A stretch of 40,503 bases of DNA from Bacteroidota bacterium (GTDB taxonomy: Bacteria; Bacteroidota; Bacteroidia; Bacteroidales; GCA-2711565): positions 1-40,503 of the forward strand of contig JAHIVC010000088.1 in the NCBI GenBank assembly GCA_018816945.1. Reading direction: 5' to 3'. Made by a program: the position numbers and the translations under genes. Under the pieces are notes generated by a model. The model ran no database searches and was not told the DNA's origin. It saw only the letters and a program-made list of their open reading frames with translations. Below are positions 21,374 through 29,362 of the stretch, in pieces (the stretch's first letter is position 1; every line of letters begins with the position of its first letter).

Positions 21374-21784
21374 TTAAGCCGTGATTTCTGTGCGTGTGAT
21401 CTTAGCCACTAAATCAGAAGTTGGATCGGGACATCTTACATATTCGGTTGTAATCCCATCCTGATTAATCAGTTTTTCGTAGGGTGTCCCTTCGTATTTC
21501 CAGGTAAGGGTTACATCGTTTTCCAACAATCTTAAAAAATCGTTCAAACTCGAGCGAAGCCAGGGGCAAATTTTACCAAAATCGGCCGGATATTCAAATT
21601 TGTCGCCCTTTTTATGGCACCAGGTATCTTCCCGGGCTTCATAAATTTCGATTTCGATTTTAAATCGTTTTCGTTTTTTAGGTTGATCCTGTTCCTGAGC
21701 AATAGCACTATTGACAAGAAATGGAGCCGCTGTGAGGCCAATCATCCCACAACCGGCTTTTTTAATAAAATCGGTACGGTCCAT
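21374..21784 (-). CDS. TIGR04076-like small exported protein
   Basis: A 136-residue protein starts 'MDRTDFIKKAGCGMIGLTAA', a Tat-like signal with only one of the two arginines (D-R-T-D-F-I-K). The mature domain has the pattern of TIGR04076-type proteins: 'KIEIEIYEA', 'WCHKKGDKFEYP', 'KICPWLRSSLNDFL' and 'EYVRCPDPTSDLVAKITRTE'. Family members are usually short cytoplasmic proteins without known function; an exported form is less common. The three cysteines of the mature domain (in WCHKKG, ICPW and RCPDP) are conserved features. The start ATG is set by the signal sequence. Confidence 0.7.
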   Translation of the reverse strand: MDRTDFIKKAGCGMIGLTAAPFLVNSAIAQEQDQPKKRKRFKIEIEIYEAREDTWCHKKGDKFEYPADFGKICPWLRSSLNDFLRLLENDVTLTWKYEGTPYEKLINQDGITTEYVRCPDPTSDLVAKITRTEITA

Positions 21785-22163: not shown

Positions 22164-22613
22164 TTATTTATCAAATTGACCTCCTTTTCTTTGGTAGATT
22201 TCAAATAAATATTTCGAAACCAATGTCTCAATTGAAATGAATTCCTTGTGAAGTTTTTCAAAGTCAATTTCTCTTTCAGGTTTCTTTGGATCGAGAATTT
22301 TACCTTTAGATTCTTGTGTCAAAGTTTCTCCAGCATCAAATATCTCCTGATTACAATGAGCAAAGTAATTTCTAATATTCATTAATCTATTCAGATGACT
22401 TTCCATTTTCGGATCAAAGTCATTGACAATTTTTAATAAAACTCTTCTTTTTAAAGCGAAACTACAATATTCGTCATACAAAAAATCAAGTAAGAATTTC
22501 ATGTCTACACGATTAAAGTAATGTTGTGAAATTATTGAATTTATTATCCATTCAATATTGATCGCTTTCTCTATTACTTCAGATCTGTACATTGAAGTAT
22601 TGGTATCTGTCAT
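22164..22613 (-). CDS. HEPN-like domain protein (R-x4-H motif), hypothetical
   Basis: A 149-residue, mostly helical protein without signal peptide. Residues 81-86 read RNYFAH, which fits the R-x4-6-H motif of HEPN RNases, at the N-terminal end of a helix as in that superfamily. The preceding region ('ALKRRVLLKIVNDF', 'HLNRLMNI') and the acidic/basic C-terminal helix also fit. HEPN proteins often act as toxins or RNA-cleaving effectors with an MNT nucleotidyltransferase or other partner, but no such gene is next to it. It could instead be an inactive HEPN-like protein. Upstream lies a repeat-rich spacer with a 40-bp motif and a tandem array. Confidence 0.6.
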   Translation of the reverse strand: MTDTNTSMYRSEVIEKAINIEWIINSIISQHYFNRVDMKFLLDFLYDEYCSFALKRRVLLKIVNDFDPKMESHLNRLMNIRNYFAHCNQEIFDAGETLTQESKGKILDPKKPEREIDFEKLHKEFISIETLVSKYLFEIYQRKGGQFDK

Positions 22614-22720
22614 AGTTTTATTTATGTTGCCTAACTATTATATATATTCATGTTTACAGAACAATACATCCCGTATTCGCATGTATCATTCATGTTTCGT
22701 ATAATTTTATTTATAAAATT

Positions 22721-22762
22721 TTTAATCATTCATCATGATTTAAATTTTTAAACGGGGAGAAA
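22721..22762. repeat. 40-bp dispersed motif, copy A
   Basis: This AT-rich segment ends in CGGGGAGAA and contains TCATGATTTAAA. It matches 28991-29032 at 34 of the first 40 positions. It lies about 110 bases upstream of the HEPN-like gene start on the minus strand. Copy B also lies upstream of a minus-strand gene. Confidence 0.7.
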
Positions 22763-22857
22763 GTCAAATATATAAAAAATTATGATGCCTTTATTAAATG
22801 GTTTTTGATTAATGTAAGGTGATCGGTAGGAAAGTTATTTGAGTAAATTATCATTGA

Positions 22858-22970
22858 GACTTCTCAAAAATATAAATGGGAGAAGTCAAAAGCAGAAATG
22901 GGAGAAGTCAAAAGTAGAAATGGGAGAAGTCAAAAGTTGAGATGGGAGAAGTCAAAAGTTAAGAAGGGAG
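22858..22970. repeat. 22-bp tandem array (five units) with one inverted arm
   Basis: GGGAGAAG recurs with an exact 22-base period, its GGG starting at 22878, 22900, 22922, 22944 and 22966; units read GGGAGAAGTCAAAAG plus a variable tail. GACTTCTC at 22858-22865 is the reverse complement of GAGAAGTC in the units, so that arm could pair with any of the first four. The spacer 22614-23035 otherwise holds no gene. Confidence 0.85.
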
Positions 22971-23035
22971 AAGTATCAATTTAAATACCACTTATATACC
23001 TGTGTAACAGGAATTTCAGGCAAATGACAATAATT

Positions 23036-24133
23036 CTATTTTATACTGAGGTTTTCTCCCTCTTTAATCCGCTTGTAATGACAAAACAGTAAATCCCCAT
23101 TTTCTTCATTGCGAAGGTGCATGCCGTTTCCTTCACAGTATTTAAAAAATTCACAATCGGCGCATTCACCGGTCCTTGTCCAGCTTCGATCCCTGAATTT
23201 GGCGTATTTGTTTTCCCAGGTATCTTTAAAGCTATCTTGATAGATATTCCCCTGAATAAAATTGGCCCTTAAATTCGGGCAGGCTGAAATGGAACCATCG
23301 ATAAGTACGGAAGCAATATTGATACCGGCCCTGCAAAAGAACAGACTATCCCTGACTTCGGCCTCATAAGCACCTAAAAATCCTTCACAGCCATAATTAA
23401 GCTTAATGTCTCCCTTTTTACGTTCGGCTGCCATGAAATCGAAAAGTTGCTTAAACTGAACCGGATTTAATTGCAATTCTTCATATTCTTTAGCTCTTCC
23501 GATAGGAAAAACGGTAAATATGCGCCACTCTTTTAACCCTTTTGAAAGGAGCAGTTCTTTTATTTTTCCCAGTTCATGAAAGTTTTTTTGATTTACACAG
23601 GTCACCACATCGAATCTCAGGTCGGGGATTTTTGCCAGGAGCCCGATTGCATTGACTGCTTTTTCAAAACTATGTGGATTGCCCCTCAGCCAATTATGCG
23701 ATTCTTCCAGGCCATCCAGACTGATGGTAACCGACCTTAGCCCTGCTTCCAGTAAAGAGTTGATCCGGCCCGGTGTAAGATGAAGCCCGTTTGAAACCAT
23801 CCCCCAGGGAAAACCCCGGTCGTATAATTGTTTCCCGCAAACTTCCAGGTCTTTTCGCAAAAGTGGTTCACCTCCGGTAAAAACGATCATGGTATTGTTC
23901 GGTTCAACGATGCTTTTAATGTCATCAATGGCTCCGATAAAATCTTTAATGGGCATGTCTTTAACCATCGCATCTTTGGTGCAATCGCTGCCACAATGCA
24001 AACAGTTGAGGTTGCACCTAAGCGTGCATTCCCAAAAAATATAACTCAGTTGATGGGTTTTTTTTGCATTGTTCCGGTACTTTTTGAAAAGTTCCAGTGC
24101 GATTTTTTTACGCAGTGAGAGTTTTAAACTCAT
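23036..24133 (-). CDS. Radical SAM/SPASM protein of an rSAM/lipoprotein system
   Basis: A 365-residue protein. The radical SAM cluster motif is C40-x3-C44-x2-C47 ('CNLNCLHC'), with an extra Cys36. 'MIVFTGGEPLLRKDLEVCGK' is the typical GGE region and 'VSNGLHLT' the following strand. The C-terminal SPASM-type part has 'FFCRAGINIAS', 'ISACPNLR' and Cys324, 327, 333 and 351 (C-x2-C-x5-C ... C), so one or two more Fe-S clusters are expected. SPASM enzymes usually modify a peptide or protein substrate. Its ATG overlaps the stop of the upstream lipoprotein gene by one base (TAATG), and three paralogous lipoproteins precede it. From memory this matches the NCBI/TIGRFAM 'rSAM/lipoprotein system' (TIGR04133). 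It lacks a signal, so it should be cytoplasmic and act before export. The reaction is unknown. Confidence 0.9.
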   Translation of the reverse strand: MSLKLSLRKKIALELFKKYRNNAKKTHQLSYIFWECTLRCNLNCLHCGSDCTKDAMVKDMPIKDFIGAIDDIKSIVEPNNTMIVFTGGEPLLRKDLEVCGKQLYDRGFPWGMVSNGLHLTPGRINSLLEAGLRSVTISLDGLEESHNWLRGNPHSFEKAVNAIGLLAKIPDLRFDVVTCVNQKNFHELGKIKELLLSKGLKEWRIFTVFPIGRAKEYEELQLNPVQFKQLFDFMAAERKKGDIKLNYGCEGFLGAYEAEVRDSLFFCRAGINIASVLIDGSISACPNLRANFIQGNIYQDSFKDTWENKYAKFRDRSWTRTGECADCEFFKYCEGNGMHLRNEENGDLLFCHYKRIKEGENLSIK

Positions 24134-24582
24134 TATTCTTCTTTCAGTTTGATGTTCATTTCTTTGGAAGTTTCGCCTTTATACCAACTTTCTCCTCCTT
24201 CAAATACGGGGTTAATGAATTTAACGGTTGTGTCTTTTGCCTGATAGCTTCCATGAGCACTACCGTCAATATCTTTAAATTCTAAGGTATAATTATGATC
24301 ACTTGGAAAATCGGCAATACGTACTTCATAATTCCCGTAATAATCAGAAATGACCGTATCCGGCAATGGATAGATTTGTTCAGATTTCATAATAACCCTA
24401 ATTGCGGGTATATTAATGCCATTTTCAGAAGTAACCTTTCCGTAAACTTTAAAAGTTGCGTGTGGACTTCCATATTCAATTCCTGGTGAAATCTTGAATT
24501 TAGTACAAGATGCTCCAAATCCTAAAATGGATAAAAGAAATGCAATAAATAAATTGTATTTCTTTAGGGTAAATTGTTTCAT
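24133..24582 (-). CDS. rSAM-associated lipoprotein 1 (rSAM/lipoprotein system)
   Basis: A 149-residue lipoprotein (lipobox GFGAS-Cys26; the signal contains 'LFIAFLLSILGFG'). The mature part looks like a carboxypeptidase-regulatory/transthyretin-like beta-sandwich: 'FKVYGKVTSENGINIPAIRV', 'DYYGNYEVRI', 'YTLEFKDIDGS', and ends 'WYKGETSKEMNIKLKEE'. It shares this core with the two upstream paralogues and fits the family I recall as TIGR04134. It is the one directly coupled to the radical SAM gene (overlap TAATG). Unlike the other two it lacks a 10-12-residue insert and has only the lipobox cysteine. It is probably exported to the outer membrane or periplasm; whether it is the maturase substrate is inference from operon and family. 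Confidence 0.85.
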   Translation of the reverse strand: MKQFTLKKYNLFIAFLLSILGFGASCTKFKISPGIEYGSPHATFKVYGKVTSENGINIPAIRVIMKSEQIYPLPDTVISDYYGNYEVRIADFPSDHNYTLEFKDIDGSAHGSYQAKDTTVKFINPVFEGGESWYKGETSKEMNIKLKEE

Positions 24583-24632
24583 TTTAATGCATTAATTAGG
24601 TTTATAGGTTGTTAAACTGCCTGTACAATATA

Positions 24633-25112
24633 TTATTCTCCTTCTTTTTTTAGCTTGATGTTTACTTCTTTAGATGCCTCACCTACATACCATGCACCTC
24701 CATTCTCAAACTTCGGATCAACAAACTTAATGATTGTATCTTTGGTTTGATAGGATTTTAAAGCTAACCCATCTGTATCCTCAAATTTTAAATTATAATC
24801 CATTTTGCCTCTATCATCCATAAGTCTCACCTGATAATTACCATAATAATCTGCAATGCTTGTATCTGAATTTGTATAGGTGGCAAAGCTTGTGTCAGAA
24901 ATTGGATAGGAATAATCAGCCGACATAATAACCCTGATGGCTGGTATTCTCACCCCATCTTCTGAAGTGACCTTACCATAAATCCTGAATCCTGCACTTG
25001 GAGTTCCGTAACCAGGACTGACCTCTTCTTTTGAGCAGGCAGTTCCGAATCCTAAAATGGTCAAAAGAAATGCAATAAATAAATTGTATTGCTTCTGGGT
25101 AAACTGTTTCAT
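24633..25112 (-). CDS. rSAM-associated lipoprotein 2 (paralogue)
   Basis: A 159-residue paralogue of its neighbours. Its first 20 residues are nearly those of lipoprotein 1 (MKQFTQKQYNLFIAFLLTIL), with lipobox Cys26 in GFGTAC. The beta-sandwich core is kept: 'GFRIYGKVTSEDGVRIPAIR', 'ADYYGNYQVRL', 'KDTIIKFVDPKFENGGAWYV' and 'GEASKEVNIKLKKEGE'. It has the insert 'SDTSFATYTNSDTSIADYYG', in which SDTS occurs twice, as if a short unit had been duplicated. The gap to lipoprotein 1 is 50 bases. No cysteine follows the lipobox one, so any modification would target other residues. Confidence 0.85.
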   Translation of the reverse strand: MKQFTQKQYNLFIAFLLTILGFGTACSKEEVSPGYGTPSAGFRIYGKVTSEDGVRIPAIRVIMSADYSYPISDTSFATYTNSDTSIADYYGNYQVRLMDDRGKMDYNLKFEDTDGLALKSYQTKDTIIKFVDPKFENGGAWYVGEASKEVNIKLKKEGE

Positions 25113-25158
25113 TTTAATTCATGATTAGATTAACTGGTAATAGAATTGTTTATATAAT

Positions 25159-25641
25159 CTATAATTCTCCTTCTTTTTTTAGCTCGATATTCACTTCTTT
25201 AGATGCTTCACCTACAAACCAACCATCTCCATTTTCAAACTGAGGATCAACAAATTTAATAATTGTGTCTTTGGCCTGATAGGATTTTAAAGCGATCCCA
25301 TCTATATCTTTAAAACTTAAATTAAAATCCATTGTTCCTCTGTAATCAGTAAGCCTCACCTGGTAATTACCGTAAAAATCTGCATAGCACGTATCTGAAT
25401 TTGTATAGGTGGCAAAGCTAGTGTCAGAAACAGGATAGGTATAACCAGCCAACATAACAACTCTTATTGCTGGTATTCTCTCCCCATCTTCTGAGGTGAC
25501 TTTGCCATAAATCTTAAATCCTGCACTTGGCGTTCCATAAGCAACTCTGACTTCTCCTTTTGAGCAAGCTGTTCCAAACCCTAAAATTGAAAGCAGGAAG
25601 GCAATAATTATATTATGCGTTTTGATCAATTTTAGTTTCAT
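25159..25641 (-). CDS. rSAM-associated lipoprotein 3 (paralogue)
   Basis: A 160-residue first gene of the operon (lipobox GFGTA-Cys26). The signal begins differently ('MKLKLIKTHNIIIAFLLSIL') but the mature part is very close to lipoprotein 2, so these two come from the more recent duplication. The insert 'SDTSFATYTNSDTCYADFYG' carries an extra cysteine not present in the other two. The conserved tail 'WFVGEASKEVNIELKKEGEL' replaces Trp-Tyr by Trp-Phe. 46 bases separate it from lipoprotein 2 and 109 bases from the DUF2200 gene upstream, where a promoter is likely. No regulatory site is recognised. Confidence 0.85.
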   Translation of the reverse strand: MKLKLIKTHNIIIAFLLSILGFGTACSKGEVRVAYGTPSAGFKIYGKVTSEDGERIPAIRVVMLAGYTYPVSDTSFATYTNSDTCYADFYGNYQVRLTDYRGTMDFNLSFKDIDGIALKSYQAKDTIIKFVDPQFENGDGWFVGEASKEVNIELKKEGEL

Positions 25642-25750
25642 GGTAATTATGTTTATTCAATGATTCATTTTGTGGTGAAAAGGTTGCTTCCAATTTTATT
25701 TTTCCGGTATTCGATTTTCACACTATTGATTTTTGCATAAACGATTCTTT

Positions 25751-26101
25751 CTACATTCTTAAAATCTTTTCCATTGTTTTACCTTTTGCCAACTCGTCTA
25801 TCAACTTGTCTAAATATCTGATCTTCTGCATGAGTTTGTCTTCGATTTCTTCCACACGATATCCGCATATGACTCCCGTAATTTTTGAAACATTGGGATT
25901 TATTTGTGGTGCCTCTGCAAAAAAAGATTCAAAGTCGGTTTTATTATCGATTTGTTGCTGCAACATTTTTTGATTATACCCTGTTAACCAACAAATGATG
26001 GTATCTACTTCTTCCTTGCTACGGCTCTTCTTCACTGCTTTTTGAATATAATGAGGATAGACACTTGCAAATGGCATTTTAAATATTTTTGAGTTATCCA
26101 T
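25751..26101 (-). CDS. DUF2200 family protein
   Basis: A 116-residue cytoplasmic protein matching the DUF2200 pattern closely: '[20 protein letters not shown]' near the start, '[10 protein letters not shown]', '[11 protein letters not shown]', '[20 protein letters not shown]' and '[19 protein letters not shown]' at the end. Full length for the family. The function is not known; the fold is expected to be small and helical. It lies on the same strand as the rSAM operon, 109 bases upstream, but the family is usually found alone, so a link is not implied. A degraded RhuM-type gene lies behind it. Confidence 0.9.
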
Positions 26102-26131
26102 ATTTCTTAAATATTGTTACACATTTACCAT

Positions 26132-26333
26132 TTAGCCGGTACTTATTTGTAAAGAATTTGGTAAAGTTAACCCCAATTTCTGCTTTGAGCTATCTTCCCG
26201 TTTTTTCATAATTTCGGATGCTGTGTTTCCCAGTGCCTAAATTTCATTGCAACATGCGATTTTATGCGATAACCAACTGATATTATGGCATCGAGATTAT
26301 AAAACACCTGTATCCGCTGTATTTCTCTTTACC
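26132..26333 (-). pseudogene. RhuM-family (virulence protein) remnant, frameshifted and deleted
   Basis: The minus strand reads 'QVFYNLDAIISVGYRIKSHV' followed by 'AMKFRHWE', which matches the core of RhuM-family proteins ('YNLD-IISVGYR' then 'FR-W'). That frame stops at 26206. One frame over, the DNA continues 'GNTASEIMKKREDSSKQKLG', like a later RhuM segment (T-A-E-I, then R-A-D-A-E-K, then G-L-T). The pieces are joined more closely than in an intact gene, so a deletion and frameshift are implied. An in-frame stop precedes the first piece. The rest of 26102-26455 contains only a GCCCC/GGGGC hairpin near 26342-26356. Confidence 0.6.
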
Positions 26334-29156: not shown

Positions 29157-29286
29157 ACAAGACACAAGACTCAAGACAATTCAAGTTTCAAGTTTCGAGT
29201 TTCGAGTTTCGAGTTTCAAGTTTCAAGTTTCAAGTTTCGAGTTTCAAGTTTCAAGTTTCGAGTTTCGAGTTTCAAGTTTCAAGTAA
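29157..29286. repeat. Heptamer arrays: ACAAGAC and CAAGTTT/CGAGTTT
   Basis: Three ACAAGAC-type units (29157-29177) are followed by 14 exact heptamers from 29182 to 29279. These are of two kinds only, CAAGTTT (8) and CGAGTTT (6), in the order A A G G G A A A G A A G G A, then a partial unit. All variation is A/G at the second base. No ORF is present in 28838-29397. Confidence 0.95.
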
Positions 29287-29295
29287 CAATTAAAA

Positions 29296-29344
29296 AGTAA
29301 CCAGTAACCAGTAACCAGTAACCAGTAACTAGTAACTAGTAACA
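29296..29344. repeat. Heptamer array AGTAACC (seven units)
   Basis: Four AGTAACC units, two AGTAACT and one AGTAACA run without interruption. The period is seven, as in the flanking arrays, but the unit is unrelated. Confidence 0.95.
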
Positions 29345-29362
29345 AGAAAAAGCTGTCTAGAA

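Follow-up and report, generated by a model that had tools for sequence, protein, structure and literature searches.

Two described systems are closest to the cassette discussed here. The first is the PlpX/PlpY splicease of Pleurocapsa with its spliceotides; according to the two reports on it (PMC10533398, PMC11002830), PlpX excises the equivalent of a tyramine from a tyrosine residue and works together with PlpY, and the two FtsZ tags listed as spliced in Table 1 of the former contain GYGLPI. Spliceotides inhibit proteases, as stated in PMC10373908 and PMC11117315, both citing Scott 2022. The second system is the "GDL motif" maturase (TIGR03913), which occurs with DUF1843 peptides. Here we analyse a stretch of 40,503 nucleotides from a Bacteroidota bacterium (contig JAHIVC010000088.1, hereafter the window), whose minus strand carries a tight cassette of one radical S-adenosylmethionine (rSAM)/SPASM gene and three paralogous lipoprotein genes, belonging to the NCBIfam families TIGR04133 and TIGR04134. 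Judging from sequence comparison, we give a probability of roughly 60% to the reading that the TIGR04133 enzyme and the three prolipoproteins form a splicease-like system, in which the segment X-Tyr-Gly-x-Pro (XYGxP) would be the target and tyramine splicing would take place before export.

The rSAM/SPASM cassette and its proposed target motif

The enzyme gene (23036..24133, minus strand, 365 residues) is located downstream of all three lipoprotein genes, which in the order of distance from it are lipo1 (24133..24582, 149 residues), lipo2 (24633..25112, 159 residues) and lipo3 (25159..25641, 160 residues), all on the minus strand. The sequence-only reading had described three lipoproteins with a common tail, gaps of 46 and 50 bases between their genes and a TAATG overlap with the enzyme gene, and all of this was borne out by the coordinates of the open reading frames (ORFs): at position 24133 the stop codon of lipo1 and the start codon of the enzyme overlap by one base, and the tails read WYKGETSKEMNIKLK, WYVGEASKEVNIKLK and WFVGEASKEVNIELK. 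The same reading had named the two families. A hidden Markov model (HMM) search agreed, since the enzyme scores 591.5 bits against TIGR04133 (cut-off 425), and lipo1, lipo2 and lipo3 score 110.7, 101.9 and 106.9 bits against TIGR04134 (cut-off 39.8). The cassette is thus a member, with the usual gene order, of the pair catalogued as rSAM_w_lipo and lipo_with_rSAM, two hypothetical equivalogs whose names give no reaction; a signal peptide with a cysteine (Cys26) following a hydrophobic helix, which is a membership feature of TIGR04134, is present. Pairwise identities are 63% between lipo1 and lipo2, 56% between lipo1 and lipo3, and 77% between lipo2 and lipo3.

The element shared by the lipoproteins is X-Tyr-Gly-x-Pro, which appears soon after the lipobox cysteine as EYGSP, GYGTP and AYGTP. 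The predicted splice sites are E36-Y37-G38-S39-P40 of lipo1 (24463..24477), placed by the family alignment and by its position in the linker of the model, and G34-Y35-G36-T37-P38 of lipo2 (24999..25013) and A34-Y35-G36-T37-P38 of lipo3 (25528..25542), both placed by sequence and family alignment; all three are on the minus strand. The AlphaFold2 model of lipo1 (mean predicted local distance difference test, pLDDT, 90.2) agrees with the beta-sandwich core that had been proposed from the letters, and shows a signal helix at residues 2–25, a low-confidence linker, and the sandwich from residue 41 onwards, so that Y37 and G38 are predicted to lie in the linker, outside the folded domain.

The family alignment of 91 rows (from 95 HMM hits of at least 40 bits), to which no filter on Tyr-Gly (YG) was applied, has the tyrosine and the glycine at columns 41–42 in 90 of 91 rows each, the proline at column 44 in 87 and the lipobox cysteine in 86, although it favours features of the window lipoproteins because the HMM was grown from them. 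The X position is E, G or A in the window and varies in rSAM-linked lipoproteins elsewhere (E, C, M, K, V, A, L and others); a near-constant YG preceded by a variable X is what would be expected from XYG splicing. Further row sets comprise 79 lipoproteins, all of at least 60 bits and with both a Met and YG identified, and 78 rSAM enzymes, from which alignment A1 (59 lipoproteins plus the three of the window) and alignment A2 (69 rSAM enzymes plus that of the window) were made; the invariance of YG in A1 is not independent evidence, since by construction it holds only rows with YG. An aromatic residue is found at +6/+7 in 154 of 214 YG cores, an upper set that also takes in chance ORFs and some YG pairs of the sandwich, such as VYGKV of the window.

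The motif outlives the fold, and it is kept when the tail or the entire beta-sandwich is replaced. In six TIGR04133 loci where the HMM detects no lipoprotein, different signal-bearing proteins precede the enzyme and still carry the motif or a near form of it: YGPVPVYGVPTAD in L069, three short lipopeptides in L071, one of them with KYGGPTADY, peptides with CYGSP and CYGAP in L080 and L082, CYGMVVP in L085, and a lipoprotein with repeated YG in L086. The genomes of the order also have coiled-coil-like proteins in which YGSPE-type units occur one to three times (L095, L101, L104, L106 and L107), and proteins of the signal-peptidase-I type carry AAQYG (L114, L147 and L174). The lipoprotein L086:5480-5977, directly before a TIGR04133-like gene, has five YG units (YGTGPENYD, YGPVQTDYD twice, YGPPPADYD and YGPISTKF) in a pattern that resembles core multiplication, and in two lipoproteins of L115 (1603-2106 and 2258-2719) the linker contains YG units in tandem, two or three of them (KYGGPPAEYGVLTAEYGVPHARF); the 4 kb stretch of L115 has no rSAM match, the enzyme being elsewhere in that genome.

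These replacements bear on the residues that the sequence-only reading had named as candidates, i.e., those of the C-terminal tail and of 'YGNY'. The latter belongs to a variable strand of the sandwich (T-D-x-x-G-x-Y). As for the tail, its W-x2-G-E element is conserved within TIGR04134 proper (W in 74 and G in 76 of 91 rows), which would suit an enzyme acting on tail or sandwich residues; nevertheless, the tail is missing in a subgroup of rSAM-linked lipoproteins present in the family alignment, in the short lipopeptides and in the coiled-coil-like and repeat proteins, and many rSAM-linked substrates keep YGxP without tail or sandwich, so that a target in these regions seems most improbable. 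The alignment for invariant side chains that had been proposed did reveal a near-invariant, fold-independent element; it is the N-terminal XYGxP, and not the tail or 'YGNY'.

Linkage of the motif to the enzyme

The association was counted in 81 TIGR04133 loci, 80 from a contig search plus the window, using as criterion an ORF on the same strand, within 1 kb upstream of the enzyme, in which YGxP comes after a signal-like segment. The cultured environmental bacteria Plebeiobacterium sediminum and Mariniphaga anaerophila are among the hosts of these loci. Such an ORF was found in 73 of the 81 loci, and four more had YG only (77 of 81 with YG in all); among 232 control genes in the same loci, YGxP occurred in none and YG in 23. 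Four loci had no YG: L052 and L083 are contig-cut, L047 is contig-cut at its start but shows YGTP in the family alignment, and the fourth is L078, discussed below. When lipoprotein-like ORFs were classified by distance, YG within 40 residues after the cysteine was present in 66 of 66 located less than 150 nucleotides upstream of the rSAM gene and in 18 of 26 located 150–2000 nucleotides upstream. The remaining lipoprotein-like ORFs of these loci had YG in five of 64 cases, four of which proved to be rSAM-adjacent on inspection; ORFs of L041, L042, L051 and L062, first scored with this remainder for overlapping the rSAM frame by more than 80 nucleotides, were reassigned in this way.

A survey of 247 genomes of the order found TIGR04133 over its cut-off in 52 and TIGR04134 in 33, and comparison of the two lists indicated that 32 of these 33 also have TIGR04133 (E 1e-60), the exception being G227. 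The survey yielded 60 TIGR04133 genes over the cut-off, that of the window included, of which 59 were evaluable (G164 is contig-cut) and 56, with substrates assigned by eye, have a linked YG-bearing ORF. Among these 56, the ORF is downstream of the enzyme in G066, G036 and G055:C8, about 2.4 kb upstream in G245, and cut at the contig start, with the signal unseen, in G236:C54. The counts from the 81 loci and from the order survey are not independent, because at least four contigs are in both (L010 = G167:C109, L022 = G217:C2, L071 = G033:C169 and L074 = G039:C38). Ten more TIGR04133-like genes score between E 1e-60 and the cut-off; seven of them have an upstream YG ORF (G084:C8, G062, G167:C172, G056:C143, G147:C27, G033:C145 and G017), G070 is contig-cut, and beside the two most distant, G082 and G186 (222.7 and 241.4 bits), a YG substrate was not found.

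As a negative comparison, eleven further stretches were examined; for nine of these, the genome of origin has no TIGR04133 match. They contained nine sandwich-like matches, and three stretches gave none. Four of the nine sandwiches have a YG core, three of which (L224, L226 and L217, the last a fragment at a contig end) adjoin an rSAM match; the fourth, L227 (AQYGAIETHY), has no adjoining rSAM match. The other five have neither an rSAM match in the stretch nor YGxP, and two of them contain YG elsewhere. Likewise, the L116 paralog in G129 has the sandwich and no YG. The occurrence of sandwiches without YGxP indicates that the motif is unnecessary for the fold.

It might still be argued that YGxP is a structural, export or sorting element and that the enzyme acts on something else, given that the motif stands just past the cysteine, where lipoprotein sorting signals are located. 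This we regard as improbable, since the other lipoprotein-like ORFs of the same loci mostly do not have YG, none of the five short sandwich homologs without an rSAM match has YGxP, some substrates repeat YG in tandem (L086 and L115), and the C-terminal end of a Nif11 precursor that lacks a signal peptide, described below, likewise contains YGxP.

Kinship of the enzyme and the proposed reaction

The best PDB matches of the structural model of the window enzyme (pLDDT 94.9) were SuiB, anSME, ChlB and an enzyme forming sactipeptide thioethers, with Z values of approximately 25–26; these matches place the enzyme among the SPASM enzymes that modify peptides or proteins, and do not single out one reaction. 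The closest solved enzyme by sequence, BlsE (59 bits), says little. Among the models named as peptide maturases, the highest scores were obtained with TIGR04103 (128.6 bits), which is the model for PlpX (WP_019503880.1) and has as its counterpart the PlpX entry IPR026482, and with TIGR03913 (121.5 bits). The canonical SPASM set comprises seven cysteines. The window enzyme has its CX3CX2C at residues 40, 44 and 47 and SPASM cysteines at 267, 285, 324, 327, 333 and 351, and both CX3CX2C and six of the seven canonical SPASM cysteines are invariant in the TIGR04133 rows. Six residues of the window enzyme (48, 49, 178, 203, 251 and 257) are shared by the TIGR04133 and the PlpX-type rows, being found in no more than two of the nine outgroup rows, and a first tree, with few outgroups (L192 and all but one of four anSME rows were absent), joined TIGR04133 to the PlpX-type enzymes with a support of 98/98.

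The substrates also show a resemblance. A Nostoc plasmid gene annotated as TIGR04103 is accompanied by a Nif11 precursor that ends in ALYGLPPELF and, downstream, by an ORF of 71 residues whose position would suit PlpY; at equal spacing, YGLPPELF of this precursor and YGTPSAKF of the lipoprotein have in common the tyrosine, the glycine, the proline and the final aromatic residue. Like PlpX, then, the window enzyme is a radical SAM/SPASM protein with a substrate beside it that carries an XYG motif, in the form YGxP as in the GYGLPI tags and in the Nostoc LYGLP, and several cores are possible in one substrate. Unlike those of PlpX, the TIGR04133 substrates are exported lipoproteins without a Nif11 or nitrile-hydratase leader, no PlpY gene was found beside the cassette, and the enzyme scores far below the TIGR04103 cut-off and is one SPASM cysteine short; for the score and the PlpY feature, it is not filed as a member of TIGR04103. 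The TIGR03913 maturase is a related enzyme too, and six of ten peptides adjacent to it (L089, L190, L191 and L214, DUF1843-type) have YG near the N-terminus, but they differ from the TIGR04133 substrates in being tiny and without a signal sequence, and YGxP is present in none of the six.

Taken together, the YGxP common to the substrates of PlpX type, the freedom of X, the six residues and the tree, although weaker with more outgroups, suggest that the enzyme probably works like a splicease. The cytoplasmic enzyme would recognise X-Tyr-Gly-x-Pro in the flexible linker between the lipobox cysteine and the beta-sandwich and, most likely, cut a tyramine equivalent (C8H9NO, -135.076 Da) out of the tyrosine, as PlpX does. 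The spliced protein would then be transported out of the cytoplasm, receive its lipid at Cys26 and be cut by signal peptidase II, leaving an electrophilic ketoamide 8–10 residues past the lipidated cysteine and before the transthyretin/carboxypeptidase-regulatory-like domain. Since spliceotides inhibit proteases, a surface-tethered ketoamide could do so as well, and its likely role would be to capture a protease covalently or to inhibit it, X serving as the P1-like residue. What the analysis shows are the cassette, its families, the conservation of YGxP across unrelated substrate bodies, the position of the motif in the linker of a predicted model and the kinship in sequence with PlpX-type enzymes, whereas the occurrence of a modification, its nature as tyramine splicing, its timing and this role are inferred. 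The more general proposal made from the sequence, that a maturase acts on the prolipoproteins, still appears to be the best reading.

Several observations weigh against a splicease. On the side of the enzyme, the TIGR04103 score of 128.6 bits is far under its cut-off of 725 and is exceeded by the scores against heme b synthase (152.5) and TIGR04053 (138.7); a cysteine of the SPASM CX3C is missing relative to the PlpX-type rows; and a wider-outgroup tree, in which the three anSME rows and L192 were added and L184, L005, L006, L126 and L213 dropped, supported the same branch with 63/96 and had two long outgroup rows at the base. Within 4 kb of the cassette, at 80 loci and E 1e-6, no PlpY-like gene, protease, transporter or other conserved third gene was found; neighbour clusters in at least 22 loci are apparent shadow frames of the rSAM and lipoprotein genes, judging by strand and offset, and beyond these the largest cluster covers 6 of 80 loci, a search that a very divergent short ORF could escape. 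With respect to the motif, L078 reads QYMAP and is a real exception; L120 and L167 have YG in a farther ORF and not in the one closest to the enzyme; in the order survey, a YG substrate was not found for the TIGR04133 gene of G175, G132 has only a lipoprotein remnant beside it, and G174:C38 has no linked YG substrate, an AQYGAPMVDY protein (L204) being elsewhere in the genome. In G227, which has a YG-bearing homolog, neither the 14 kb around it nor the assembly (E 1e-60) contains a TIGR04133 gene, and four of the ten GDL-adjacent peptides read YA or YM, which breaks a strict XYG rule. Finally, PMC10533398 reports in Table 1 that two of 16 FtsZ constructs were spliced and 14 failed, many of them with the same core, and that four of four terminal FtsZ tags failed.

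Alternatively, the enzyme might act on XYGxP by another chemistry, such as a cross-link of the tyrosine, a link of its beta-carbon or a thioether to a nearby cysteine, or epimerisation. SPASM enzymes catalyse many peptide reactions, and SuiB, which forms C-C cross-links, and the sactipeptide thioether enzyme are among the closest solved folds (Z approximately 26); moreover, a cysteine near the tyrosine is conserved (86 of 91 rows), the aromatic residue at +6/+7 is frequent, and the SPASM domain has one cysteine fewer than the PlpX-type rows. However, cross-links leave a near-invariant tyrosine and glycine with a free X unexplained, the nearby cysteine is that of the lipobox and is missing in the AAQYG subgroup, and the YGxP segment is common to a precursor of PlpX type. 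We therefore consider another chemistry on the same motif rather unlikely, yet the most serious competitor to splicing.

If splicing is correct, Bacteroidota and some Spirochaetota may display membrane-anchored proteins bearing a ribosomally encoded ketoamide, made by means of a leaderless, PlpY-free clade of spliceases, with operon paralogs varying X for protease specificity; in the CYGTP subgroup the lipidated cysteine would itself turn into an alpha-keto-beta-amino acid, and a beta-residue would thus be the starting point for processing of the lipoprotein. This wider picture is tentative and we would not expect all of it to hold. The TIGR04133/TIGR04134 pair is already catalogued; what would be new in the literature searched are the putative target motif and the splicease-like chemistry. 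A literature search outside which the 2022 splicease survey remained returned no paper naming TIGR04133, TIGR04134 or 'radical SAM-associated putative lipoprotein', and none joining spliceases to lipoproteins or keto-beta-amino chemistry to lipoproteins and radical SAM enzymes; the passages of PMC8939145 consulted have no bearing on the pair. For a pair that lacks an assigned reaction and whose enzyme scores over its cut-off in 52 of the 247 surveyed genomes, the proposal amounts to a specific mass-spectrometry prediction at a named tripeptide, and the three paralogs would allow X = E, G and A to be compared under one enzyme in one cell. Backbone splicing would then modify cell-surface proteins, beyond small peptides, and a PlpY-independent enzyme would be a simpler tool for ketoamide labelling.

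A separate observation concerns L093:2955-3596, an ORF beside an rSAM enzyme similar to TIGR03913/TIGR04103, which shows repeated KYGYP(C) units and is a possible multi-core substrate.

Copy number, distribution and surroundings of the cassette

The sequence-only reading had considered three substrates for one enzyme unusual. The survey it proposed, carried out with an iterated HMM on the 81 loci, counted one linked lipoprotein ORF in 56, two in 11, three in 5 and none in 9; thus at least two were detected in 16, a few of the ORFs counted there being short or low-scoring pieces. The nine zero counts include one artefact (L051, where the lipoprotein is present), two contig-cut loci (L052 and L083) and the six mentioned above whose substrates the HMM misses. 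Since six YG-bearing ORFs precede a single enzyme in L114, three per enzyme is uncommon, and neither exceptional nor unique.

The three lipoproteins are the only TIGR04134 matches in the 4.1 Mb assembly (E 0.001), and the window enzyme is its sole TIGR04133 gene over the cut-off. The nearest relative found, HGW-Bacteroidetes-17 (L009), has the same three-lipoprotein arrangement, with identities of 95% for lipo1, 97% for lipo2 and 96% for the enzyme; its first paralog and lipo3 share only 66% identity, yet the X order A-G-E from the 5' end is kept. The genus relatives G117 and G216 have neither family, and therefore the cassette is accessory. The cassette might be inactive, with the enzyme or the lipoproteins decaying, and no point in favour of this was found; the four ORFs are intact, the invariant cluster cysteines are all present and the relative retains both the sequences and the X order, so that inactivity is the least probable of the explanations considered.

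The sandwich domain resembles, by structure search, domains of S-layer proteins, the carboxypeptidase transthyretin-like domain, teneurin and the SusC N-terminal extension (Z approximately 10). With these as the best matches, an enzymatic function for it was rejected; Foldseek lists catechol dioxygenases first, with TM scores of 0.4–0.55.

Upstream of lipo3, at 109 bases and on the same strand, the window has a DUF2200 gene (25751-26101, 184 bits), which is not a usual part of the cassette because no neighbour cluster exceeds the 6 of 80 loci given above. A terminator scan of 22600-26200 found no terminator-like site, and a promoter scan around the cassette gave 25 promoter-like sites against 12.9 expected; both scans are uninformative. 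Just downstream of the enzyme gene there is a tandem repeat of five 22-bp copies (TCAAAAGTAGAAATGGGAGAAG, 22864-22974). Farther away, dense arrays of heptamers (TTCAAGT and AGTAACC) lie between two genes at 29180-29346, and the protein encoded at 21374-21784 has a weak likeness to TIGR04076 (27.3 bits, cut-off 33).

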